From a virus, in IMG/VR virus record IMGVR_UViG_3300037485_002034, positions 1 through 24,393 of that record: a stretch of DNA of 24,393 nt; one strand, written 5' to 3'. Under the pieces are notes generated by a model, which saw only the letters and a list, made by a program, of their open reading frames with translations, had not been told where the DNA came from and ran no database searches. Shown one piece after another: positions 3,362 to 16,508 of the stretch. Both the position numbers and the translations under genes were made by a program. Positions within the stretch are counted from its first letter, which is position 1; each line of letters starts with the position of its first letter.

Positions 3362-3737
3362 GAAAATTCTTACAGAAAGTGGTTTAGGTCAAACTCTAGC
3401 AAATATTATTAAATCTCAATCACCTATCCAGAAAGGATCTGCTAGGCAATCAAAGCCTCAAGGTCAATCCGTAGCTGTTCAATTAAATATGTCTATTCCG
3501 GGGTTTCCTTCAGTGATTAGAGCTTTTGCTTTTAATCCTATTCAAGTAGGATCAAATAACGTTAGCTTAGTTAGATTATCCGAGCCTATCAATGGGTGTG
3601 ATTGGGGTGCTTTTTCTGGTTCCCCTAGTCAGGTTGTTAACTCAAGATCGGAAGTTAACGTATCCCAAACACCTCAATCTACAGATAGCAGAAAAATCAA
3701 AATTGAGATCAAGATTGGTTACACCGGAAAGTTATAA
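3360..3737 (+). CDS. Lone plus-strand ORF, probable phage protein (125 aa)
   Basis: It starts MKILTESGLGQTLANIIKSQ and continues with a beta-like segment (VAVQLNMSIPGFPSVIRAF, about residues 38-56), ending in a basic strand (KIKIEIKIGYTGKL). Composition looks protein-like. Its ATG shares two bases with the ATG of the opposite-strand 617-residue gene, and its last codons overlap the end of the minus-strand portal frame. It therefore fills the 370-base gap between them exactly, and no competing minus-strand ORF occupies the gap. A weak AGGAA lies 11 bases before the start. There is no room for an intergenic promoter. Function is not recognised. Confidence 0.55.
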   Translation: MKILTESGLGQTLANIIKSQSPIQKGSARQSKPQGQSVAVQLNMSIPGFPSVIRAFAFNPIQVGSNNVSLVRLSEPINGCDWGAFSGSPSQVVNSRSEVNVSQTPQSTDSRKIKIEIKIGYTGKL

Positions 3738-4754
3738 ATATGGGTTACTCTCCTCTGGTTTTTCCTCTGTTGATGCCTCTGATTGCGCTTGTTCCTGCGC
3801 TTGTTTTTGCTGTTCGGCTACCATGAGTTTTTCAATTAATTCTTGGTTAAAATCCTCCTGTCTTCTTTGGCTTAATCCTAAGTCTTTTCTAAGCTGATTC
3901 AATGCCTCTAAATCAGTGGGATTAAATAAACCCGTTTGAATACAGGTCATAATATTAGAAACCCGCATTCCCGACTGTGCCGGATCTAAGAACTGTTCGG
4001 CTTCAAAAGTTCCGTAATTATCCTGTATTCCAAAGTTCCACATCAATAAAGGGCGACAAACGTTATTAATTAATCTATCTCTAAATTGTCTGGCTATTTC
4101 CTCAATTAAGCCATCTAAAATCAATCTATGTCCTGAGTTCAAGCCAGCCTGTCCGAGCGTAGCAGTGCCTTCATTAAAGATGGTATAGGGGATTCCATAA
4201 GCCAACCATCTATACTTATCTAGCTTTTCAGAAGTTAAATTAAAAAAACCTTCTCCTCCGGTTTGGGGAATTGTAGTAATAGTGTTATTTTTATCCGTTC
4301 CCACAATCGATCCATTGGCTAAATCCTTTAATTGATCTAAAGCCTGAGCTAATGCCGATGTGTTTTTAGTCTGTCCGTATTCGTCAAGGATAGGCTTGCC
4401 GTTCGAGTCCATCATCGGGATTGGTTCAGTTGACGGAACTTGTACGATAGTTAACCCCGTCGCTTGCCGTTGACAAGCTACACTCCATTCCCGCATCAGT
4501 AACTTATGAAATTCCCAGAAAGGATAGGCTGCTGCGGCTTGCGGATCTCCGTTCGGGTCATTGCTATCAATTGGGGTATTTGAGATGTGCAAACATTTAG
4601 AATAAGGAATCCCGACCTCACCCTTGCTTGACGAATAAATTATCCGATCTATCTGACCGGATTTCCCTGCAAACTTAATCCGACTAGGCTCTAAAATATT
4701 GAATCGTTTAATCCTTAATTCTCCCTTGTGTCCCTCCATCTCCGTACTAAACAC
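3732..4754 (-). CDS. Phage portal protein, C-terminal part (frameshift-split)
   Basis: The portal forms the dodecameric DNA gate at the capsid vertex. These 340 residues look like the body and C-terminus of a Mu gp29-type (DUF935-like) portal. Seen: an EPSRIKFAG / GVPYSK-like region at about residues 22-55; a central GEGFFNLTSEKLDKYRWLAY segment; GIPYTIFNEGTATLGQAG; and a helical stretch (LILDGLIEEIARQFRDRLIN) before NFGIQDNYGTFE. The tail is Gln/Glu-rich. GTG 4754 is only nominal: the same frame is open upstream to 4778 and reads NGEIVFSTEMEG, which continues the sense of the preceding frame. The gene is probably not an independent start. It is inverted relative to the capsid genes. Confidence 0.7.
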   Translation of the reverse strand: MFSTEMEGHKGELRIKRFNILEPSRIKFAGKSGQIDRIIYSSSKGEVGIPYSKCLHISNTPIDSNDPNGDPQAAAAYPFWEFHKLLMREWSVACQRQATGLTIVQVPSTEPIPMMDSNGKPILDEYGQTKNTSALAQALDQLKDLANGSIVGTDKNNTITTIPQTGGEGFFNLTSEKLDKYRWLAYGIPYTIFNEGTATLGQAGLNSGHRLILDGLIEEIARQFRDRLINNVCRPLLMWNFGIQDNYGTFEAEQFLDPAQSGMRVSNIMTCIQTGLFNPTDLEALNQLRKDLGLSQRRQEDFNQELIEKLMVAEQQKQAQEQAQSEASTEEKPEESNPYL

Positions 4755-5077
4755 AATCTCGCCATTTGAAGGATAACATCAGACAATGATCCTTCCATCG
4801 TTTCCCAACAGGAATTAATAAACTCTACAGGGGTAAAGTTGCCAGAAGGGAAAGAGGCAATATTACTATTCCCGTGCTTAAATGTTCCTGTTATTGCGAT
4901 CGCTCTCGAAGCTTTAACAGTCAAAGCCGCGCCCGAAATTGGATCGGCTTTGAGCATTGCAGCTAAATCTTTAATTGGGTATTTTCCCCTAGTGTTCAAA
5001 CTAGAGACAAAATCCCAGATTAAATTATCAAGACTGGGTGATATTTGACCCGGAAGGTAACTTAATTTTTCAACCAT
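4715..5077 (-). CDS. Phage portal protein, N-terminal part (frameshift-split)
   Basis: This 120-residue frame has a portal-like N-terminus: SPSLDNLIWDFVSSLNTRGK at about residues 13-32, then LKADPISGAALTVKASRAIA and EFINSCWETMEGSLSDVILQ. The last part (MARLCLVRRWRDTREN) looks like out-of-frame readthrough. Joining it to the downstream frame by -1 at the AAA run (complement of 4765-4767) gives about 448 residues, close to the size of DUF935-type portals. ATG 5077 overlaps the stop of the XRE gene by 8 bases, suggesting coupled translation. Whether the break is a mutation, a sequencing error or a recoding site cannot be decided here. Confidence 0.65.
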   Translation of the reverse strand: MVEKLSYLPGQISPSLDNLIWDFVSSLNTRGKYPIKDLAAMLKADPISGAALTVKASRAIAITGTFKHGNSNIASFPSGNFTPVEFINSCWETMEGSLSDVILQMARLCLVRRWRDTREN

Positions 5078-5354
5078 TATCGACCCCCAACAATAAATAA
5101 ATCAATTCAGACGAAGTTAGACTCAAAACCCTGGAAATGTTAACAACCTCAACACTTGATATCTGCAAAACTCCAGACTCTTTTCTACTGATAGAAGCCT
5201 GCTTATAGTTAAGTAATTCTCCTAACTCAGATTGTGTCATACTCCTATCTTCTCTTAGTCTCTTTAACCTTTGTCCAATACGATCTAAATATACTAAATT
5301 GGTATATTTTTTACCAGAGTTTGAGTTAACAGAATAGTATTGTAATTGACCCAT
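5070..5354 (-). CDS. XRE-family helix-turn-helix regulator (94 aa)
   Basis: Residues 24-90 form a Cro/C1-type DNA-binding domain: IGQRLKRLREDRSMTQSELG (helix 1 and start of helix 2), then NYKQASISRKESG (recognition helix, about 50-61), ISSVEVVNISRVLSLTSSEL and LIYLLLG. The first 20 residues are polar and unmatched. No other domain is present, so it is a minimal repressor or regulator, possibly autoregulatory. AGGGG lies about 6 bases before ATG 5354. The opposite-strand protease gene starts only 16 bases away. It overlaps the portal gene by 8 bases, an odd place for a regulator. A terminase small subunit was considered, but the XRE pattern is clearer. Confidence 0.8.
   Translation of the reverse strand: MGQLQYYSVNSNSGKKYTNLVYLDRIGQRLKRLREDRSMTQSELGELLNYKQASISRKESGVLQISSVEVVNISRVLSLTSSELIYLLLGVDNG
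5287..5309. promoter_or_regulatory. AT-rich palindrome, candidate operator
   Basis: Arms AAATATAC and GTATATTT (8 bp, perfect) flank a 7-base centre TAAATTG. The site lies inside the first codons of the XRE gene and about 60 bases upstream of the plus-strand protease start. That is where a promoter for the right-hand operon would have to lie, because only 16 bases separate the two genes. Binding by the XRE protein is inference. Confidence 0.35.
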
Positions 5355-5370
5355 TATTTACCCCTTCCCT

Positions 5371-6261
5371 ATGGGTGTTTCTTGCTTTGACGGTATAGGT
5401 GGATTGTGTCAGTTTTCTGAAGACAACCCCACCGGAGAACTAATTAAAAACGCTCTGGTTTTGATTGAGGGAACGCATAAAGACAACCAAGGGGTAGTCC
5501 ACGAGTTCCCGTCAGAACGGATATTGAGGATTGCACAACGGACAAATGCGGCAATGTCTCAAGGTTATGAGATTCCACTTATGTCCGATCATAGCAAGCA
5601 ATTGATCGGGGCGGACGGTGAACTCAAAAAACTTGGGATTTTTGTTAGTCCTTTCGAGTGTCGGGTTATCCGTCAAGAGGATTTACCTAACCCAAAAATG
5701 CAACACTTAATCGGAAAACTTGGTGCATTTTCCAGGGTTAATATTCTTAATAAGGTTAACGAAGTCCGATCAAAACTAATTAATCTCCTAAGTCCGGGTG
5801 TTGATCTCAAGCTCGAAAGGTTGGCAGAAGTATCCGCCGTTGCCTTTCCTGCTATTCACGGCCCCGCGCTTTTCGCTGCGTCATCTACTGTTCAAGACTT
5901 GAGTTTTGCTTCGGTCAAAGAGGAACAGGGAACGTTTAAGCGACAAAGAGAGGATCTATTAGAGGAGTTTGAAATCCTATTACAAACTATCCAACGGATT
6001 CAAAAAGCCTCACCTGAACAATTGGTAGCAGTAAGTCCCGAACAATTGTTATCGACTGCGATTGACGAATTTACGGCAGAAATTAAGCAGTATTTTGGGC
6101 TTGATAATCTGAGTCAATCAATAAATCAAGAGCCTGAATTACCGTATAACTCAAGCCCTTATGCCAACGAATTAGTCAAGGGGCAAGCCACTTATTCCCT
6201 GAGTAACACTACTTCTGATTTTGGCAGTACGGGGTTAAGACGACGGAAAAAGAACCGATAA
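5371..6261 (+). CDS. Prohead (head maturation) serine protease
   Basis: This protein cleaves scaffold and capsid precursors during head assembly. The visible pattern fits HK97 gp4-type (S78-like) proteases: His74 in LMSDHSKQ, Ser121 in KLGAFSRVN, and Glu153 in LAEVSAVAFPA. The His-Ser and Ser-Glu spacings (47 and 32) are close to those of HK97 gp4 (His65, Ser115, Glu148). After residue 170 comes a Glu/Gln-rich helical region (about 185-240) and a basic end (GLRRRKKNR), suggesting a fused scaffold-like segment released by autocleavage. ATG 5371 follows a stop at 5347 and has no Shine-Dalgarno, so TTG at about 5404 is an alternative. It heads the plus-strand operon. Confidence 0.8.
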   Translation: MGVSCFDGIGGLCQFSEDNPTGELIKNALVLIEGTHKDNQGVVHEFPSERILRIAQRTNAAMSQGYEIPLMSDHSKQLIGADGELKKLGIFVSPFECRVIRQEDLPNPKMQHLIGKLGAFSRVNILNKVNEVRSKLINLLSPGVDLKLERLAEVSAVAFPAIHGPALFAASSTVQDLSFASVKEEQGTFKRQREDLLEEFEILLQTIQRIQKASPEQLVAVSPEQLLSTAIDEFTAEIKQYFGLDNLSQSINQEPELPYNSSPYANELVKGQATYSLSNTTSDFGSTGLRRRKKNR

Positions 6262-6298: not shown

Positions 6299-6802
6299 AT
6301 GAGTTTTTACCAATACGAACCGCCTGTAGCGATGTTCTCAATGGCGGAAGTTGATAAATATAATCGGTATGAAGGATCTGGGATGGCGTTGTTTGCTACA
6401 GAGCCTGCGATGGTGCGCGTCTCCCCTCCTGGCCCCAAAAAATTAACAGGGTATGGCAAACAAGTCCGGGGTGTTATACGAGGTGTGAGTGGTGCTGCGT
6501 CGGGTACTGCTGGTGCTGTATCTGGAGCGTCGAGAAGTGTTGGCATGGGTACTGGTATAGGAATCCAGAGACTCGGTAGAGGTCTTCGTTCCGCAGCAAC
6601 GGGAATGGGTGATAATTTTGTCGGCAAAGGAGTTGGTGGGTTAGGTACGGGGTTAAACAAAGCTGGTCTTATGGTTAGAAAAAACCCACGACTAGCTGCT
6701 GCTGCAATGTTAGCTGGTGCTGTGGGGGCTGGCGGGACAATGTTTATGCGTCGTCGCAGATCTAAAACTGGAAAAATGATTGTTGAACAAGTGAGACGCT
6801 AA
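6299..6802 (+). CDS. Small head-region protein with C-terminal RRRRSK-GK tag (167 aa)
   Basis: Domains in order: an acidic/aromatic N-terminus (about 1-35, with GMALFATEP); a Gly/Ser/Ala-rich low-complexity middle (about 55-125); a hydrophobic Ala/Gly helix (about 132-149) that could span a membrane or pack in a helix bundle; and the C-terminal motif RRRRSKTGKMIVEQVRR (151-167). The motif recurs at the ends of the next three proteins. AGGAG 7 bases upstream supports ATG 6299. It sits between protease and scaffold, where internal or ejected head proteins are often encoded. Function is not recognised; an internal capsid protein or membrane-active ejection protein is a guess. Confidence 0.65.
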   Translation: MSFYQYEPPVAMFSMAEVDKYNRYEGSGMALFATEPAMVRVSPPGPKKLTGYGKQVRGVIRGVSGAASGTAGAVSGASRSVGMGTGIGIQRLGRGLRSAATGMGDNFVGKGVGGLGTGLNKAGLMVRKNPRLAAAAMLAGAVGAGGTMFMRRRRSKTGKMIVEQVRR

Positions 6803-7296
6803 TGATTATTGTTCGGAGGGTTATACACAAAAAAACTACTTCTTTTGGGCTTTTTACCCCTGAGCAATTAGGTCAAACATTCCAGTGCAATTTTGCCAAA
6901 AAAGTAGCTCAAAACACAAAGCAATCATACAGAGGGATCTCAGATCCGTGGGATGAGCCATTTAGTCGCAAAGTAGACCCAAAAGGGAATCCCAAAATGC
7001 CTCCATCTCCACGACTCCTTAGTCCTGGTGTAGATCTAAGGGGTTTTTACTCTTTTGATCGGTTCGTAAAAAGGAATGCAAAAGGAAAGAATATATCTCC
7101 CCCTAAAGTCTCAACGGGAAGCCTAGCTCCTTCTGTGAGCAGTGGCTTTAAAACTACAATAAACAGCAGTGGAATACCCGCTCCGTTAATTGGTGCTGCG
7201 TTAGGGATAGGTGTTGCCGCAACCGCTCATTATTTCTGGAGAAAACGCAGATCCAAAAACGGTAAACAAATTGTTGAGAGGGTAAGGAGAAAATGA
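6802..7296 (+). CDS. Small head-region protein with C-terminal RKRRSK-GK tag (164 aa)
   Basis: The N-terminus MIIVRRVIHKK is followed by SFGLFTPEQ, then a basic Pro/Ser-rich middle. A hydrophobic Gly/Ala segment (about 127-145, APLIGAALGIGVAATAHYF) follows, and then the shared end motif RKRRSKNGKQIVERVRRK (147-164). It overlaps the upstream stop by one base (TAATG) and the downstream start by four (ATGA), so translation is probably coupled. The first 27 bases nearly repeat at the start of the 7580 gene, marking the two as paralogues. Function is unknown. Confidence 0.65.
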   Translation: MIIVRRVIHKKTTSFGLFTPEQLGQTFQCNFAKKVAQNTKQSYRGISDPWDEPFSRKVDPKGNPKMPPSPRLLSPGVDLRGFYSFDRFVKRNAKGKNISPPKVSTGSLAPSVSSGFKTTINSSGIPAPLIGAALGIGVAATAHYFWRKRRSKNGKQIVERVRRK

Positions 7297-7583
7297 TCAT
7301 CATAAGAAGAATAAGATCCCCTTCTTTTGCTCAATTTGGCTTCAGCCCATTTGGTCGAATAGAGCGGGTAAACAAAGGGGCAGAACGTCAAAGAGTAACC
7401 TTGCAAAAGGCTTTAGATGCCGCAAAATCTGAAGGCAAAAACCTCCGAGATCCCAATGTTTTAAGACAGGTTATGCTCCCAGTCGCCCAAGCTAATAAGG
7501 GTCGTACTGGTGGATCTGCTTTCACCCGAAGGCGGAGAACCAAAAAAGGCAAAATAATCATAGAACAGGTAAACAGGAAATGA
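7293..7583 (+). CDS. Small basic head-region protein with RRRRTK-GK tag (96 aa)
   Basis: It starts MIIIRRIRSPSFAQFGFSPF and ends RRRRTKKGKIIIEQVNRK (79-96). The middle is polar and basic, and unlike its neighbours it has no clear hydrophobic helix. It overlaps both flanking genes by four bases (ATGA). It is the third member of the tagged array and shows that the end motif is kept even when the hydrophobic segment is missing, so the motif probably has its own role. Function is unknown. Confidence 0.6.
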   Translation: MIIIRRIRSPSFAQFGFSPFGRIERVNKGAERQRVTLQKALDAAKSEGKNLRDPNVLRQVMLPVAQANKGRTGGSAFTRRRRTKKGKIIIEQVNRK

Positions 7584-7864
7584 TTATTATTCGGAGGGTT
7601 AAACATCGAAATCAATTAGCTTCTTTTAATGCCCTATTATATGGTGCGGCTGCGGTTGGGAGTGTAGGACTAGGCGCTTTATATGGTCGTAGTCAACTCA
7701 GGCAAGATAACAGAGAATACCTCAAAAAACATTCAAGAGTTAGACAAGGACTTCTCATCTTATCAAGACCTGAAGCTGCTATCGGTATCGGCGCAGGAAA
7801 GATGTTTTCCCGTCGCAGAAGAACCAAGAATGGAAAAGTTATTGTAGAACAAGTTAGGAGGTAA
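7580..7864 (+). CDS. Small head-region protein with RRRRTK-GK tag (94 aa)
   Basis: The N-terminus MIIIRRVKHR matches the 6802 protein. A hydrophobic Ala/Gly segment (about 13-36, LASFNALLYGAAAVGSVGLG) follows. The end motif is RRRRTKNGKVIVEQVRR (78-94), preceded by a short Gly-rich hydrophobic run (AAIGIGAGKMF). It overlaps the upstream stop by four bases. Its last codons contain a perfect AGGAGGT Shine-Dalgarno for the next gene. It is the fourth member of the array; function is unknown. Confidence 0.6.
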   Translation: MIIIRRVKHRNQLASFNALLYGAAAVGSVGLGALYGRSQLRQDNREYLKKHSRVRQGLLILSRPEAAIGIGAGKMFSRRRRTKNGKVIVEQVRR

Positions 7865-7867
7865 TCA

Positions 7868-8875
7868 ATGGACGATATTCAACAAGCGTTAGAGCAATCA
7901 ACATTAGCAATTGAAGATTTACAGCAACTTTTAAGTGTTACAACGTTCCCTGAAATTCACGAAGCTACTGCGGCTTCCGTAGCTTTTTTGCTATCAACTC
8001 AAGCTGTGTTGGATCAAGAAGATGGGGATGTTTTACCTGAAGATGAAGTTGATGATGCTGTTGCCGAGGGAATTGAAGATGTCGCCTCTACCATGTATCA
8101 AATCTTTGGTATTGATGTAGAAGAATCCCGAATGGAAGATGAAGGCGAGATGGAAGAATACTCCCAAGATATGGGGTATGTTGCTTCATTTTCTCAGGGA
8201 TTTGGTCAAACTTTAGCGGGTTTGATTGAGCAACGTTTTAACTCAATTAAAGATGGTGTTGCTGTTGTTAGTGAAATCACCGGATTAAACGAGCGAGATA
8301 TTTCTAGCCTGTTTGATGGGACGCTGGCAATCGAACCCGAAACCGCCGCCGAATTAGCAGACGCTTTCCAATTGGGCGGTCAAGATTACAACGATTTTGT
8401 GAGTCTAGCTGCGAATGCTTTTACTGAGTTAGGGGGATCTCCCGATGATTCCTACTCCCTGAGTGAAGGCATCTATGCTGAACCCGTTGCCACCATGAAT
8501 GCTGACATCGGACTTCGCGCCGAATTTGAGGCACTCAAGGAACAGCAAGCCATTGGTGAAACACTCCGAGCTATCGAGCGCCAATGTGATCAGATGATTG
8601 CCAATGGGATTTTAACAACCCATGAGCGCCGTTTACTGATTGGAGAATTTGAGACGGGTCAAGATCGGACGGCTCAATTTTCCTCGGCTTGTGAAGGGTT
8701 AAGCGTCCCACCGGGTCAACAGTTAGATCGTCTGCAATATTACCTTTATATTGCCAACGCTCGCGGCCCTATCGCTCAATTTGGACAAATGGCTAATGAC
8801 CCGATTGACACCGACTTCTCCCATGAAGATGTGCAATCTATTCAGTCATTCCGCACCCGTAATGGATACGTTTAA
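7868..8875 (+). CDS. Putative capsid scaffolding protein with HTH-like segment (335 aa)
   Basis: It is strongly acidic in residues 48-100 (QEDGDVLPEDEVDDAVAEG and EDEGEMEEYSQD). Residues 115-182 resemble a Cro/C1-like fold (SEITGLNERDISSLFDGTLA, then an ETAAELADAF helix). A helical region (215-310) follows, with AIERQCDQMIANGILTTHER. Location between protease and decoration/capsid genes, plus acidic helical character, fits a scaffold. The C-terminal layout is reminiscent of the scaffold half of Mu gpI-type proteins. AGGAGGT at 7856-7862, 5 bases before ATG 7868, predicts strong translation. No capsid-binding motif is proven; a minor virion protein is the alternative. Confidence 0.5.
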   Translation: MDDIQQALEQSTLAIEDLQQLLSVTTFPEIHEATAASVAFLLSTQAVLDQEDGDVLPEDEVDDAVAEGIEDVASTMYQIFGIDVEESRMEDEGEMEEYSQDMGYVASFSQGFGQTLAGLIEQRFNSIKDGVAVVSEITGLNERDISSLFDGTLAIEPETAAELADAFQLGGQDYNDFVSLAANAFTELGGSPDDSYSLSEGIYAEPVATMNADIGLRAEFEALKEQQAIGETLRAIERQCDQMIANGILTTHERRLLIGEFETGQDRTAQFSSACEGLSVPPGQQLDRLQYYLYIANARGPIAQFGQMANDPIDTDFSHEDVQSIQSFRTRNGYV

Positions 8876-8884
8876 GGAGAAAAA

Positions 8885-9796
8885 ATGAAAGTAACCCGTT
8901 TTTATTCAGACCCTCCAATTATCGCGGTAAATACTAATACCGAAGCCGCGTTTTCTTGCTGCTTAGAGGAGTCGGACATCCCATCTATTGCAGGATCTAA
9001 ATCCGTTCCTGCGGGTGTTTTTCTTGCTAAGAAATCTACAGGCGGTCATCGCCCATTGGGTAGATCCAAAATTCTTGCTCCCTATGTTTCCGGTGAAACT
9101 GTTGTAATTGTGGAATGCCCCCAGGTTTTCAAGATTGGAGATGTACTTCGCTACATTGCAGCACCAGGGGTTTCACGATACACAGAAGAAACCGCTATTC
9201 GTGCAGCTACAGCCCCGCTATTTGGGACTGTGACGGGTATTGATTCCTTGAATCAAAGACAGATTACGACCGTTACTTTTGCCTCGGTTGCTGTTGGCAA
9301 TATTTTTACTGTTTCTATTAACGGCGTTCCCATTTCTTACACAGCTACGGCTGCATCAAATCAGAATGTAGCTGATGGATTAAAAACTGCTATCACCAAA
9401 GCACAATCTGGGTCTTCTCCCTTAGAAGAAATCCGTGTGACAACTCCGGGCGGTGTCCTAACATTAACTACCGATCAAGAAGGAATCATTTTCACAACGG
9501 CTGTAACGGTAGCTCAGGGTGTTGCTGGCACTTTGGGAACTGCGGTTGCTGATGTTTCTACGGCAATCGGAACCCTAACCATTACCCCTCAAGGTGGTAA
9601 TGCGTCTCTGGCAATTGGAGCCAAGATCGGTACGATTGGGGATGTTGTTGTCGGTGTGTTGAATAACAGTATCTCGCTCTATGACGGTGATCAGTTTATC
9701 GCTCCGTACTCAGGTGGTGTCGTTTATATTGATGCGTTGCCATACATTGACGGTGACATTCAAACCCAATTGCCAAAGTTAACCTTTATTCCTTAA
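8885..9796 (+). CDS. Putative capsid decoration protein (303 aa)
   Basis: The flanks (about residues 30-110 and 235-303) look like a small beta head protein: SVPAGVFLAKKSTGG, VVIVECPQVFKIGDVLRY and a C-terminal IDALPYIDGDIQTQLPKL. An inserted domain (about 120-225) has the pattern FTVSINGVPISYTATAAS / VADGLKTAI / TTPGGVLTLTT, a beta fold often seen inserted in phage head or tail proteins and probably surface-exposed. AAGGAG precedes ATG 8885. Position just before the major capsid gene matches lambda gpD order. Homology to gpD itself is not visible, so the call rests on synteny. Confidence 0.6.
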   Translation: MKVTRFYSDPPIIAVNTNTEAAFSCCLEESDIPSIAGSKSVPAGVFLAKKSTGGHRPLGRSKILAPYVSGETVVIVECPQVFKIGDVLRYIAAPGVSRYTEETAIRAATAPLFGTVTGIDSLNQRQITTVTFASVAVGNIFTVSINGVPISYTATAASNQNVADGLKTAITKAQSGSSPLEEIRVTTPGGVLTLTTDQEGIIFTTAVTVAQGVAGTLGTAVADVSTAIGTLTITPQGGNASLAIGAKIGTIGDVVVGVLNNSISLYDGDQFIAPYSGGVVYIDALPYIDGDIQTQLPKLTFIP

Positions 9797-9812: not shown

Positions 9813-10940
9813 ATGTACATTGCAGATTTCTTAAATACTGTATCGGCTGCACAAGTTCAACTTTTGTATGAAGATACTTTTCAATTCCTGGTTGACCCTG
9901 ATAAAGAATCCCTCCTGCAACGGATGGGCAAAAAACCCGATCCGGGGGTTCTGAGTCAATATAAACTGATGGATGATTTTGTCACCCTTGAGTTTTCCGA
10001 TGACCCTGATGTGTTGGCATATCTTGTTAAACAAAACCTAGCAATCGCTTCTGTGATTTCTACCGATGGTGAGGTTGTCTCAACGGGCGCGGGTAGCTTA
10101 ATTAAGTTTGATGGAGACTTCTTTAAGCTGGCGATCGCCCATAACTGGGATGAGAAAAAGCAGGAGCAAATGCTGAAGTTTAAACGGATGTTGCCGGGCA
10201 ATATGTCCCAGACATTCGTTGATATGCTGTTTGGTTCCGTTGCCAGTCTACAGCCTAGAGTTGTCAAACTTGCAAACGTTCTGACTTGGCAAGTATTACA
10301 GTCGGGTCAAGTCAGTTATACCGACCCCCGATCCGGTGTAACGGCTAAATTGCAATATACCACTACAGCCGATCAGTATCCTACTGCTTTGACGACAACG
10401 GCTAAATGGGATGCTTACACTACTGCCACGGGGTTACAGGATATTGAGGATCATCTACTCAACTTCTATGACAAGAAGGGTTATTACCCAGACAAGATTG
10501 TGATGAGTAACCGTCTGGCTATTCACCTTTCCAGACAAGAATCAACCCGTAACCGAGCGTTATCCACTGGGATGCTGTCTAATGTTCCGGCTGCGGGTGT
10601 GGCTAGTGCCGTTTCACCTGAGATTTTAATGCGGGTCGTCCCTCAACTGGCAATGTCCAAAACTCAATTAGAGATTTACGATGCCCAATACGAGATCGAA
10701 ACATCACCGGGTCAAACAGTCAAAGGTCGCTACCTGAACGATAACGCCTACTGTTTCCTGACTACTGGCATGGGTAAACGATTGTTCGGCCCCACAATTG
10801 AAAATGAAGGGAGATCCGGTCTGTTTGTGAAGACTGAACAATTGCAAACTTCCCCCCCCCGTGACCGTTCCTACTGCGTTGGCAAAATGGTTCCTTTTTT
10901 CCCACAGCCTGACTTATTGGGAGGTCGGACAGTCGCATGA
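9813..10940 (+). CDS. Major capsid protein, lambda gpE-like
   Basis: This is the shell-forming protein. Features of the gpE-type family are visible. The N-terminus is helical. The middle contains VLQSGQVSYTDPRSGVTAKL and QYPTALTTTAKWDAYTTATG, then DKIVMSNRLAIHL. The C-terminal part has QYEIETSPGQTVKGRYLNDN, YCFLTTGMGKRLFGPTIE and KTEQLQTSPPRDRSYCVGKM. Length (375 aa) suits the family. GGAGGG lies about 10 bases before ATG 9813. The last four bases overlap the next gene (ATGA). A run of nine C at 10852-10860 encodes Ser-Pro-Pro-Arg near the C-terminus. No N-terminal delta domain is evident, which fits a separate scaffold. Confidence 0.85.
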   Translation: MYIADFLNTVSAAQVQLLYEDTFQFLVDPDKESLLQRMGKKPDPGVLSQYKLMDDFVTLEFSDDPDVLAYLVKQNLAIASVISTDGEVVSTGAGSLIKFDGDFFKLAIAHNWDEKKQEQMLKFKRMLPGNMSQTFVDMLFGSVASLQPRVVKLANVLTWQVLQSGQVSYTDPRSGVTAKLQYTTTADQYPTALTTTAKWDAYTTATGLQDIEDHLLNFYDKKGYYPDKIVMSNRLAIHLSRQESTRNRALSTGMLSNVPAAGVASAVSPEILMRVVPQLAMSKTQLEIYDAQYEIETSPGQTVKGRYLNDNAYCFLTTGMGKRLFGPTIENEGRSGLFVKTEQLQTSPPRDRSYCVGKMVPFFPQPDLLGGRTVA

Positions 10941-11407
10941 TAGATACCACTAGACCTGTAAAGCTTCTCAAAATGGCGGTCAATCGAGGGAATATCTATC
11001 ACCCTCGAATCTATAACCCCGGCGAATTACCAGAGGAAGTGTTAGCACGGGTTGATATTTTGCAACAGGACGAAGCCAAAAGTCCCGATGCAGTGTTAAC
11101 CCCAACTATCAATAACTCGGACGTGAAAGTTGAGAATAGCATCTCATTTTCTGTAGAAGCTCCGAGTACAATTCCCAAAGCCTATCCCACTGAAACCGTT
11201 GTTGTTGGTGCTGTTTTACCCAAAACAGATATTAATAAAGCCACGATTGACGAGCTTTCTAAATTGCCGGGTGTTGGGGCTGCGATCGCCACTAAACTCG
11301 ACAAAGCACGGGAACAACAAACCTTTACCTCTATTGAGGATTTAGATACAAGAATCCCCCTTAGAGGTAAGTCTTGGGACGAATTAAAAGAATCTATTTT
11401 GATCTAA
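10937..11407 (+). CDS. Head-completion-region protein with helix-hairpin-helix (156 aa)
   Basis: The N-terminal domain (about 1-48, VKLLKMAVNRGNIYHPRIYN then GELPEEVLARVDILQ) resembles the short domain found after capsid genes in Mu-like prophages (HI1506-type); that comparison is from memory. A variable linker follows. The C-terminal domain (about 95-152) is a ComEA-like helix-hairpin-helix: INKATIDELSKLPGVGAAIA, then an EDLDTRI helix. The LPGVG hairpin is the classical non-specific DNA-backbone contact. It overlaps the capsid gene by ATGA. A role at the head-tail junction touching packaged DNA is inference. Confidence 0.65.
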   Translation: MIDTTRPVKLLKMAVNRGNIYHPRIYNPGELPEEVLARVDILQQDEAKSPDAVLTPTINNSDVKVENSISFSVEAPSTIPKAYPTETVVVGAVLPKTDINKATIDELSKLPGVGAAIATKLDKAREQQTFTSIEDLDTRIPLRGKSWDELKESILI

Positions 11408-11964
11408 TGATTTATACAACTCCTGACCGCATAGCTCGAATATTAAGAGGGAGGCTTGAACTTAGTACAACTGCGTCAGGTGTTCCCTTTGGATCTAGCT
11501 TTGGTGCTAAGGAAGTTGACTTAGATTTGTTGGATCAGAAGGGCAGTCAAATTGAGGCTCAGGTTAATTCAATTCTTAACTTTGTTTACGAATTACCTAT
11601 ACCTTCAAATGCCCGCGATGCCTTACAGATTATTAGTTCTATTGTTGAGGATTTGACGGTTGCTTCCCTTGCGGTGGTGCATTTTCAACAGATGCAAAAC
11701 CCACAAATGGGGGGAGATATGGGGTTTGGGGCTATCCTTTACCGGAACGCCCTGTACACCCTTAGACAGTATGTGGCGGGTTATCAATTAGATTTCAACA
11801 TTCCGGGTTTACCTCCTCCTATGGCTAACCCGATGATGCCGACCCAAACCTTAAAGTTGCCCGGCGTTAAGTTGAAAGTTTTAACCCCAGGAACATATAC
11901 CCGACAAACCACAATTGTTACCCAGAAAAATCCTTGCCCAGCCGATAAAATTAATTGGAGTTAA
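11407..11964 (+). CDS. Putative head-tail adaptor (gp6/DUF1320-like), 185 aa
   Basis: ATG 11407 overlaps the previous stop by one base (TAATG) and is preferred over earlier in-frame non-ATG codons. MIYTTPDRIARILRGRLEL, EVDLDLLDQKGSQIEAQVNS and ARDALQIISSIVEDLTVASL match the usual helical layout of head-tail connectors that stack on the portal. These typically start with a short (A/T)TxxD helix and then a bundle of amphipathic helices. The C-terminus is Pro/Met-rich (GLPPPMANPMMPTQ), probably extended. Placement between capsid and tail genes agrees. The family is recognised by pattern only. Confidence 0.55.
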   Translation: MIYTTPDRIARILRGRLELSTTASGVPFGSSFGAKEVDLDLLDQKGSQIEAQVNSILNFVYELPIPSNARDALQIISSIVEDLTVASLAVVHFQQMQNPQMGGDMGFGAILYRNALYTLRQYVAGYQLDFNIPGLPPPMANPMMPTQTLKLPGVKLKVLTPGTYTRQTTIVTQKNPCPADKINWS

Positions 11965-11980
11965 AAACAGAAAATTAATT

Positions 11981-12389: not shown

Positions 12390-14735
12390 ATGATTGACTT
12401 TCCAGCTTTGTTTCCGAGCCTTGTTAAATACATCCCGAACTGGATGGAAAAATTCTATCCTCGCATGGCACAATTCGCACGGGGTGAGGGATACCCGTGT
12501 GGCAACAAAGGGGTTTTTATCCCCCGTCGGAATAAGTGTTGGACACACCCAAAAACGGGTCAACGGATGAGAAAACCGCTAACCTATCAAAACTATCAGG
12601 ACGCTAAGGAAAAATCTCAACGCAGTAGAACTGAGAAGGGTAGAACTGCACTAGCTAATCGTGAGCAATCATTTAGAGATAAGGCTAGAGAAAAAGCTAG
12701 AGGGTGGCAGAATAAAACACCGGAACCCGAAGTGGCTTTAAAAGTAGGAACTAAACAGGTTAATATCAAGGGTTCGCCTGAGTTGTATAAAGAATTAAGT
12801 CTCACCCACGATCCGTCTCTAGGTTGGCAGATTACCAACAAAAAAGGGGATGTTTTAAGACAACCTAAAAATGGGAAACTAGAACCAACTCACCGATTCA
12901 AGGAAAAATCTCAAGCTCAAAACTTTGCTAAACAGGTGATAGCAAAAGTTGATAGGATGACGGGAAAACCCGCAACCAAATCAGAACCCAAACCAACCCC
13001 CGATTCAACAGGGGTTAAGGGTGCGGGGGGTAAATCAGTCGATCAACAATATAAGGATATAATTGCTAAGTCGAAAGATCCAAAGGCAACAGAGGAAGCT
13101 ATATCACAGGCTTTATCAGATACTTTAGACTTTGAGAAAAAAACTTATGAGCGATATTTAGAATCCCAAAAAAATGGGACTGTTCCCAAGGGATACGAAA
13201 AACATTATCAAGATCATATTGATCAATATAAACCCGTTATTGAGGCGGAACAATTCTTAAAAGAGAGAAGAAAAAAAGCTCTTGATGGTGACTTTGAAAC
13301 AGAGGCAGAAGTAAGACCTTATTTATTGAAAATGATGGATAAATATAAAAAGGACTATGATTATTATGACAGTCCAGAATATGCCGAAAAACGGGAAAAG
13401 TTCAAATCCATTGTAGGTGAAGCTCCATTGCCGCCCGTACTATCTGGCAAGATTCCTGCTAAAGACTTAAGACAGACATTAAAACCAGGCGATAAACTAT
13501 TAAGAAAACAAGCTACTTATGGATATGCAGGGAGTTCTAGTGGCAATACTCCGACCGGATGGAAATACTCGGACGGTGGGGAAGTAACCAAGGTTGCAAT
13601 TAAGAATGTTTCCACAAAAATAAACTACGGGATGGGGGATCGGATGTTTGATGATTCCGTCCCCATGCGCGATATCTCCCACGTCATCCGAGATGGTAAA
13701 CGTTACAAGGTAGATGATTCTGATAGCTCCCCCAATGATTTAGGTGTCATTGAAAAGGCTAAACCAAAAACCGGATCAGCAAGGGTTAAGGGTGCGGGGG
13801 GTAAATCAGAGTCTACTGAACCTCAGAAAAAAGTTGAACTAGATCAAAGGAAAAAGGATATAGGAATACCGAGTAGCGATGTTGAATACGATAAATGGCT
13901 AGAAGGAAAAACTCAATCACTCAAGGGACAGGAACGAAAAGAGATTAAAATAAAAACCCATGCTAAGGGCGAAATCTCTGTTCCGGGTACGGAGTACGAG
14001 GGGTTGGCTGTCCATCCGGCAAAAAATGCACAGTTAAAAGAAGTTTACAATGTGACCCATTTAAAAACAGGCTTGAGTGTAGGAGAGTTTGTTGATGAGT
14101 CGCAAGCTAAAAAAGCCGTAGCAGGGCTTTTGGAAACCGGAGTTGACTGGGGAAAAGAAGATATTAGAGGGGATAAAAATATAGGGAAGGTTTCAAGTAC
14201 ATTAAAAAATGTTAGGACTTCTGATATTCGACAAACCAAGAAAAAGCTGTTTGAGCAAGCAAAATCAGAAGGGATAGAAGTTGATTTTGACAATGAAGAA
14301 TCCAAAAAAGGTTTTGTTGACAAGATTTATCAACACATAAAAAAAGGTGGAATGAGTCGTATTGAAAACGATTATGACTCGTTTCTTAGAGCGTCTCCAA
14401 AAAGTGCCAGAGAGCTAACGACCGCTTATTTATTTGATAAACCAGATTCAGACAATATAGAATCACTAGAAGAAATAAAGCGGATGGCTAGAAATGGAAA
14501 AGTAAATGGGAAAGTTTTATATGAATCCTATTGGCATTTTAAAGACAAAAAGAAAAATGATTTCAATTCTAATTTAATCCTAGCTAACTTTGGAAATAGT
14601 AACTTGAGGAGACTAAAATCTAAACTTGCTAACTTTGCCAAACCCGGATGCTGTTGTGAAGCATCCAAACCATTAAAACGCAGGAAAACAAAACAAACCC
14701 CTAGACTGAAAAGAAGGGGGAATAGATATGCTTGA
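12390..14735 (+). CDS. Large modular basic phage protein (781 aa)
   Basis: Function is not recognised. Modules seen: an N-terminal helical segment (1-30, PALFPSLVKYIPNWMEKFYP); a two-Cys motif (about 37-50, CGNKGVFIPRRNKC); a Lys/Arg/Glu-rich helix (60-110); a small domain (115-185); a linker with VKGAGGKS (209-216); a coiled-coil-like region (220-340); a beta region (350-450) with GDKLLRKQATYGYAGSSSG; a second VKGAGGKS linker (466-473); a further mixed domain; and a highly basic end with CCC and KRRKTKQTPRLKRRGNRYA. GAGGAT 4 bases before ATG 12390 supports the start. It overlaps the next gene by 8 bases. It could be an ejected virion protein or cargo carrying swappable domains. Confidence 0.6.
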   Translation: MIDFPALFPSLVKYIPNWMEKFYPRMAQFARGEGYPCGNKGVFIPRRNKCWTHPKTGQRMRKPLTYQNYQDAKEKSQRSRTEKGRTALANREQSFRDKAREKARGWQNKTPEPEVALKVGTKQVNIKGSPELYKELSLTHDPSLGWQITNKKGDVLRQPKNGKLEPTHRFKEKSQAQNFAKQVIAKVDRMTGKPATKSEPKPTPDSTGVKGAGGKSVDQQYKDIIAKSKDPKATEEAISQALSDTLDFEKKTYERYLESQKNGTVPKGYEKHYQDHIDQYKPVIEAEQFLKERRKKALDGDFETEAEVRPYLLKMMDKYKKDYDYYDSPEYAEKREKFKSIVGEAPLPPVLSGKIPAKDLRQTLKPGDKLLRKQATYGYAGSSSGNTPTGWKYSDGGEVTKVAIKNVSTKINYGMGDRMFDDSVPMRDISHVIRDGKRYKVDDSDSSPNDLGVIEKAKPKTGSARVKGAGGKSESTEPQKKVELDQRKKDIGIPSSDVEYDKWLEGKTQSLKGQERKEIKIKTHAKGEISVPGTEYEGLAVHPAKNAQLKEVYNVTHLKTGLSVGEFVDESQAKKAVAGLLETGVDWGKEDIRGDKNIGKVSSTLKNVRTSDIRQTKKKLFEQAKSEGIEVDFDNEESKKGFVDKIYQHIKKGGMSRIENDYDSFLRASPKSARELTTAYLFDKPDSDNIESLEEIKRMARNGKVNGKVLYESYWHFKDKKKNDFNSNLILANFGNSNLRRLKSKLANFAKPGCCCEASKPLKRRKTKQTPRLKRRGNRYA
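13012..13038 (+). repeat. 27-bp direct repeat, copy 1 (encodes VKGAGGKS linker)
   Basis: This stretch is identical base for base to 13783-13809. It encodes the linker at about residues 208-216 of the 781-residue protein, directly after a Pro/Lys/Thr-rich stretch. Confidence 0.9.
13783..13809 (+). repeat. 27-bp direct repeat, copy 2 (encodes VKGAGGKS linker)
   Basis: Identical to copy 1, 771 bases downstream and in the same reading frame (771 = 3 x 257). The pair brackets a 249-residue central module. Recombination between copies would remove that module cleanly without a frameshift. Confidence 0.9.
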
Positions 14736-15992: not shown

Positions 15993-16508
15993 ATGACTGA
16001 GATTAAAAAAAGACAACCCAGACGGACGGCGACAGTTAATTATTATGACCCGATAACAGGGGAATTTATCACCTCTGAATTAATCACGGCTGCACCCTTT
16101 GTTAAATGGGGGAAAATTGCAGAAATTCAGAAGTTAATCCTTGAGTTATATGTTGAGACTGGGGGATCTATTAGTGACTTATTTTGCCATGAAACCTTTA
16201 TCCCATTGTGCCAACAATTATCAACATTAATTCCGGTTGTCGGTCAAACCCGCCCGATTGATTTTCAGGCTTTACTCGATGCTGATGACTGGCCCCAAAT
16301 CACACGGCTATTCATTACCACGTCCTACGATGACGCTGGCAATCGAGATGTTGACGCTAAAGGCGAAGCCACTTTAATCGAGCCCGGAATAATAGCGGAT
16401 CTGCACAATCTCAATTTTTTGCAAATCCTAGTGGACAAAGAGAGGGAACGGCAGAAAAGGCTGGAGAAGCAACTCGCCGAATCAGAAGCAGTGGAAGCTA
16501 CGAAGTAG
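15993..16508 (+). CDS. Tail assembly chaperone (lambda gpG-like)
   Basis: These chaperones wrap the tape measure and recruit tube subunits. The 171-residue protein begins MTEIKKRQPRRTATVNYYDP, then has ELITAAPFVKWGKIAEIQKL and mixed helices. It ends with a charged coiled-coil tail (KERERQKRLEKQLAESE). ATG 15993 is chosen over an earlier TTG (15954), which would overlap the tube gene. A second frame overlaps its 3' end, and T TTT TTG at 16415-16421 sits in the correct phase for -1 slippage. Gene order (tube, this gene, tape measure) is that of gpG in lambda-like phages. Confidence 0.7.
   Translation: MTEIKKRQPRRTATVNYYDPITGEFITSELITAAPFVKWGKIAEIQKLILELYVETGGSISDLFCHETFIPLCQQLSTLIPVVGQTRPIDFQALLDADDWPQITRLFITTSYDDAGNRDVDAKGEATLIEPGIIADLHNLNFLQILVDKERERQKRLEKQLAESEAVEATK
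16415..16421 (+). promoter_or_regulatory. Slippery heptamer T TTT TTG, probable -1 frameshift site
   Basis: In the gpG-like frame the codons are TTT (416-418) and TTG (419-421), preceded by T415. This gives the canonical X XXY YYZ pattern. A -1 slip continues at GCA (16421) in an open frame to 16792. No ATG exists in that frame before 16622, so independent initiation is unlikely. Confidence 0.65.

Follow-up and report, generated by a model that had tools for sequence, protein, structure and literature searches.

The internal head proteins of phage T4 form a diverse set of defence proteins in which the capsid targeting sequence (CTS) alone is conserved (PMC3012670), and one of them, IPI*, is injected into the host as an anti-defence protein (PMC3012670, PMC5694885). 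Prohead proteases of the T4 and phiKZ types cut after Glu at a P3-x-P1 motif, and the gp245 protease of phage SPN3US cuts after AxE with a preference for Ser at P1' (PMC10052503, PMC5694885). Here, we analysed IMG/VR virus record IMGVR_UViG_3300037485_002034 over positions 1 to 24,393 (hereafter the window), where an array of small tagged genes lies between a prohead protease and a scaffold. We report the anatomy of these genes, their variation among related phages and the enrichment of a short motif, AxF, in the array and its neighbours, and we compare the locus with the T4 and SPN3US/phiKZ systems.

The tagged four-gene array

The initial annotation had reported four consecutive genes ending in nearly the same residues, and all four open reading frames were recovered with mutual overlaps of 1-4 bases and with the tags at the claimed coordinates (RRRRSKTGKMIVEQVRR, RKRRSKNGKQIVERVRRK, RRRRTKKGKIIIEQVNRK and RRRRTKNGKVIVEQVRR for genes 1 to 4). 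All lie on the forward strand. Gene 1 (6299-6802; family A) carries the leader MSFYQYEPPVAMF-S, a second AxF at residue 32, a Gly/Ala segment and a tag encoded by 6749-6799. Gene 2 (6802-7296; family B3) has the leader MIIVRRVIHKKTTSF-G, a Gly/Ala segment and a tag at 7240-7293, while gene 3 (7293-7583; family K) begins with MIIIRRIRSPSFAQF-G, has no hydrophobic segment and ends with a tag at 7527-7580. Gene 4 (7580-7864; family L) begins with MIIIRRVKHRNQLASF-N, has an AxF immediately before its Gly/Ala segment and is tagged at 7811-7861. An N-terminal MII(V/I)RR in three of the four proteins and a Gly/Ala-rich hydrophobic segment in the products of genes 1, 2 and 4 were likewise found as described. 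The bodies do differ, but to call them unrelated slightly overstates the case, since several families share, besides the hydrophobic segment, certain parts of their bodies. To these features we add three: an [AT]xF[GSN] motif common to all four proteins, with F at residues 13-16, the variability of the array in related phages, and the existence of decayed copies.

The C-terminal tag follows the consensus FxRRRR[ST]KxGKxIVEQVRR in all four genes. A single tag used as query retrieved the other three at E-values of 3.5e-7 to 2e-4 and nothing more in the whole record. Between paralogues the DNA encoding the tag is 59-73% identical, with 4-7 identical codons per 10-14 shared residues; this divergence rules out a recently duplicated piece of DNA and implies that the protein sequence has been kept by selection. 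In a low-confidence structural model of the gene 4 product, the tag is predicted to form a β-hairpin (strands 75-81 and 87-93) around an N-G turn. The initial annotation knew of no named family for these proteins, and indeed none of the four matched Pfam, PHROGs or PADLOC, nor did the tag profile match any sequence in the PDB.

Distribution and variability

The protease, the capsid protein and the tag profile were used as queries to gather relatives, giving about 20 to two dozen IMG/VR contigs of the lineage. Tagged genes were present wherever a contig covers the slot between protease and scaffold, and their number varied from 3 (L011-L013 and L015) through 4 (the window), 5 (L027), 6 (L007) and 8-9 (L005, L006, L008, L014 and L026) to 11 (L019/L052). 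The expectation that tagged genes cluster beside prohead proteases was borne out, the tag being confined to this slot in the records of the lineage, including those of 31-85 kb. About 12 tagged families could be distinguished, and their order is fixed across relatives. Most of them contain a Gly/Ala-rich hydrophobic segment, mostly lying within 17-25 residues of the C-terminus and directly before FxRRRR; family K is found in nearly all arrays.

The array varies even though the flanking major capsid protein is 96-99% identical across the lineage. In relatives, gene 1 retains its N-terminal 30 residues and its tag, and the body between them is swapped. In L005, an internal deletion in family K fuses the leader half to the end of the tag, with a junction that appears to lie at the short repeat GGCAAAA. 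Frameshifts interrupt family L in L006, L014 and L035, and family B in L008 and L009. A decayed gene of L006 survives only as remnants of the leader (MIIIRII-stop) and of the tag (AFTRRM-stop-TKNGKIIVEQVRR-stop).

Outside the lineage, the tag was absent from 50,697 isolate phage records queried with the gene 4 protein and one tag segment. Its common occurrence on non-phage cellular proteins would have spoken against the interpretation in the initial annotation. Searches with the tag profile, which detects phage contigs and thereby serves as its own positive control, found no full-length tag at E <= 0.01 among 293 genomes from the order of Planktothrix, and 386 genomes from its phylum yielded no match at E <= 1e-4. 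Four weak partial matches in the order (E 7e-4 to 0.007) span model positions 4-35 of 44 and all stop short of the C-terminal end of the tag. The tag is hence not common on cellular proteins, and its absence from the cyanobacterial genomes searched led us to reject a cellular or host sorting signal. Tags of the PEP-CTERM, GlyGly-CTERM and LPXTG types come with a recognition motif ahead of a transmembrane helix, a signal peptide and a matching cellular sortase. Read from the sequences, the proteins lack a signal peptide as well as any LPXTG or PEP motif; their MIIVRR-type leader and the helix-free family K argue against these types as well.

The host is Planktothrix, a bloom-forming cyanobacterium, named by CRISPR spacers. 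The phage is matched by six spacers, carried in CRISPR arrays of four genomes from the genus to which Planktothrix paucivesiculata PCC 9631 belongs, over 35/35 to ~38/45 bases, at positions 16040-16074 (35/35), 10140-10180, 5626-5660, 5884-5923, 11922-11966 and 14659-14692 of the window. Two of these targets fall inside the protease gene, and the tagged array is targeted by none of the six. A scan of the genome contigs with the major capsid protein revealed no prophage, the sole match being a CRISPR spacer.

Head genes and the AxF motif

The array is embedded in a block of head genes, all on the forward strand, with the order protease, cargo, scaffold, decoration protein and major capsid protein shared by the window, the relatives with coverage and the Pseudanabaena phages PA-SR01 and Pam2. 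The protease (5371-6261) matches phrog_976 (E 1.5e-5) and is 30% identical to the 'Mu-like prophage I protein' of PA-SR01 (E 5e-24). Aligned by eye with the PA-SR01 clade, it keeps the His of DHS (residue 73) and the Ser of LSPG (residue 140). The family relation and these putative catalytic residues point to a Mu gpI-like prohead (head maturation) protease, an assignment made from sequence, the structural model having a pLDDT of only 34. Its AxF-like sites are LCQF-S, PALF-A and a C-terminal SDF-GSTGLRRRKKNR, the last reading SNF in relatives. The scaffold (7868-8875) is assigned from its location and its acidic character (pI 4.1; net charge of -49); it has sites VASF-S, TAQF-S and IAQF-G and is about 29% identical to its PA-SR01 homologue (E 4e-5), with RTAQF-SSA aligned to RVAQF-SGI. 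Downstream lie a conserved decoration/head protein (8885-9796; phrog_909, E 2e-4; PA-SR01 homologue, E 1e-4) and the major capsid protein (9813-10940; phrog_29, E 5.6e-18; PA-SR01/Pam2 capsid protein, E 1e-25).

Several other features of the region deserve mention. Short basic ends resembling the start of the tag occur in the scaffold (SFRTRNGYV, 8840-8872) and in the protease (RRRKKNR, 6226-6258; RRRRKN in relatives). A 781-residue basic protein with a net charge of +48 and no family match (12390-14735, forward strand) has MAQF-A at residue 27 and, towards its C-terminus, LANF-G, LANF-A and an Arg/Lys-rich tail; by its sequence it may be a further packaged head cargo. The head-region protein encoded at 10937-11407 ends in a helix-hairpin-helix-like stretch (VNKATIDELSKLPGVGAAIATKLDKAR), and the gene following the capsid gene in PA-SR01 (L018, 10354-10878) contains a stretch similar in look. 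On the reverse strand of the window, a frameshift due to sequencing error or mutation breaks a Mu-type portal gene (3732-5077) that forms a single frame of ~470 codons in six relatives. Between portal and protease lies a reverse-strand HTH repressor-like gene (5070-5354); PA-SR01 likewise has a small reverse-strand gene ahead of its protease, and Pam2 a reverse-strand HTH regulator upstream.

Matches of its protease, major capsid protein, scaffold and decoration protein mark PA-SR01 as a genuine, though distant, relative. Proteins of this clade occupy the same place between homologous protease and scaffold, and they too vary among related contigs and show a basic leader with AxF and Gly-zipper segments. 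They differ in being long and modular, in carrying as many as 7 AxF sites (often IRKSANF) and in the absence of the C-terminal tag. Those of PA-SR01 and Pam2 are all annotated as 'hypothetical protein'; a gel in the PA-SR01 paper has four bands. The scaffold of the clade has a net charge of -43 to -47. In one slot protein of ~310 residues (L072 2867-3796; L078 3955-4905), a start of MRHFVNFG replaces AxF and the charge is near neutral; it may be a cargo whose site has changed, or else an enzyme.

In the tagged proteins of the window clade, [AT]xF lies at residues 13-21 of every distinct body, with a small residue directly after it. With Ser also allowed in the first position, the motif ends at residues 10-24 in 17/17 distinct bodies; in 2000 shuffles the expected number was 2.2 and the highest 9. 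The residue following it is G, S, N, A or Q at all 17 sites. When every pair of residues at gaps of 0-3 was counted in the tagged bodies, A.F proved the most over-represented (28 observed, 10.7 expected, p 7e-6). In a separate test on PA-SR01 at gaps of 0-2, covering its protease, cargo and scaffold genes, A.F was again the top pair (17 against 5.5, p 6e-5); the rest of that genome, where AxF also arises by chance, shows no excess, with 49 occurrences against 60 expected. Part of the excess stems from modules related to one another, IRKSANF in the PA-SR01 clade and the MIIVRR leaders in the window clade, and the sites are therefore not fully independent. The 12 residues preceding AxF sites have a charge of +2.1 to +2.5, compared with +0.7 in the background.

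By analogy, AxF with a small P1' would match the P3-x-P1 layout of known prohead proteases, with Phe as P1. Its presence in the leaders of all 17 bodies and its enrichment in protease and scaffold make the leader a candidate propeptide. The leader ending in AxF, rather than the C-terminal tag, is the best match to a T4-type CTS; such a leader recurs in the distant PA-SR01 clade, which has no tag. A protease site at the F before RRRR was also considered and is unsupported, the residue two positions before that F being A, T, H, S, K, V or M. Because no consistent AxF site precedes it and because it is restricted to one clade, the tag is probably kept on the mature protein, where docking or DNA binding would be a likelier role than that of a cut-off signal.

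Interpretation and comparison with known systems

Sorting of these proteins to the prohead as internal head proteins, on the T4 pattern, is the best-supported reading. We consider it probable that the array is a hypervariable locus of head cargo in a Planktothrix phage lineage, with the leader cut at AxF and the tag retained. The sorting signal proposed in the initial annotation, with capsid targeting as its example, stands insofar as prohead-sorted internal proteins are concerned; the CTS-like element would be the AxF leader, and the C-terminal tag less so. Each gene can be seen as a cassette made of a short, usually basic leader ending in AxF, a variable body, which in most cases includes a hydrophobic helix rich in Gly and Ala, and a C-terminal tag that is basic and modelled as a hairpin. 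From these features we infer cleavage, packaging, ejection and separate roles for leader and tag. The cargo would be made beside the acidic scaffold, and its basic ends would recruit it into the prohead core; the charges (-49 for the scaffold, +12 to +25 for the cargo and +7 to +9 for the tag) are compatible with a tag that docks the cargo to the scaffold or to DNA. Next, the prohead protease would cleave behind each AxF, so that the cargo loses its leader and the scaffold, with its three sites, falls into fragments. The mature basic cargo, still tagged, would remain with the packaged DNA and enter the host together with it on ejection; there, the bodies might act at the membrane, as the Gly/Ala-rich stretch in most of them suggests, or against host defences. 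By analogy with the T4 internal proteins, the variability of the array suggests an arms race. A more specific model, which we offer only tentatively, is a two-ended cargo-loading cassette: a leader for a protease of new AxF specificity would be combined with a basic β-hairpin that docks the cargo on the scaffold core, and anti-host effector bodies would be gained and lost in an arms-race island.

Other functions can be envisaged for such basic, partly hydrophobic proteins. The Gly/Ala helices could be ejected, oligomerise in the host membrane and form or gate a DNA channel, as do gp7, gp16 and gp20 of P22, a phage in which ejected conduit proteins are known (PMC8402733); the basic tag would then be the positive flank of a tail-anchored helix. 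The position of the hydrophobic segment, in most families just ahead of the tag, fits this idea, and so do the similarly Gly-zipper-like slot proteins of PA-SR01 (one sub-threshold Pfam match, E 4e-5). An essential conduit, however, would hardly consist of 3 to 11 genes of varying kind in a lineage that tolerates single losses and frameshifts, and the near-ubiquitous family K lacks a hydrophobic segment altogether; we therefore regard a conduit as unlikely. Still less probable, in our judgement, is a basic set that compacts or charge-balances the packaged genome with the tag as a DNA-binding tail. The strong positive charge of all the cargo, whose tag would outlast removal of the leader, and the contacts of T4 internal protein lysines with DNA phosphates (PMC3012670) agree with it, but pure electrostatics needs neither the conserved GKxIVEQV half of the tag nor such diversity of bodies. 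That the genes encode non-virion proteins, for example late host-takeover or membrane proteins that only neighbour the head genes, with AxF and tag unrelated in cause, seems very improbable given the AxF sites that the array has in common with protease and scaffold, including an aligned scaffold position, and a slot fixed across two clades.

If the array does encode head cargo, the rule of a leader with AxF, plus the clade-specific tag, would predict packaged head proteins and their cut sites in a group of freshwater cyanophages, a prediction testable on the cultured phages PA-SR01 and Pam2. The hypervariable locus would also be a likely place of effectors delivered into bloom-forming Planktothrix.

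We place the array as working like the T4 internal proteins and not as a member of that group, because homology to the T4 internal proteins or Alt was not found when the four window proteins were compared with Pfam and PHROGs, the tag profile with the PDB, and gene 4 and a tag segment with isolate phages. As in IPI-IPIII and Alt with their CTS, diverse bodies share one conserved short end, which in T4 serves entry into the prohead core; as in T4, too, a single locus is hypervariable among closely related phages, and the leader would, as a candidate propeptide, correspond to the cleavable N-terminal propeptide of 10-20 residues in T4 (PMC3012670, PMC5694885). The window lineage differs from T4 in its putative cut after AxF instead of Glu, in the additional conserved basic C-terminal tag and in runs of up to 11 genes. 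With the ejection proteins of SPN3US/phiKZ, cut after AxE or SxE, it would share a P3-x-P1 type of motif, Ala at P3 (SPN3US), a small P1', motifs repeated within propeptides and a protease with C-terminal self-cleavage; it also has paralogous cargo comparable to gp53/gp54 with their identical N-termini. It is set apart from them by a putative Phe at P1, by short putative propeptides (13-21 residues) and by its C-terminal tag.
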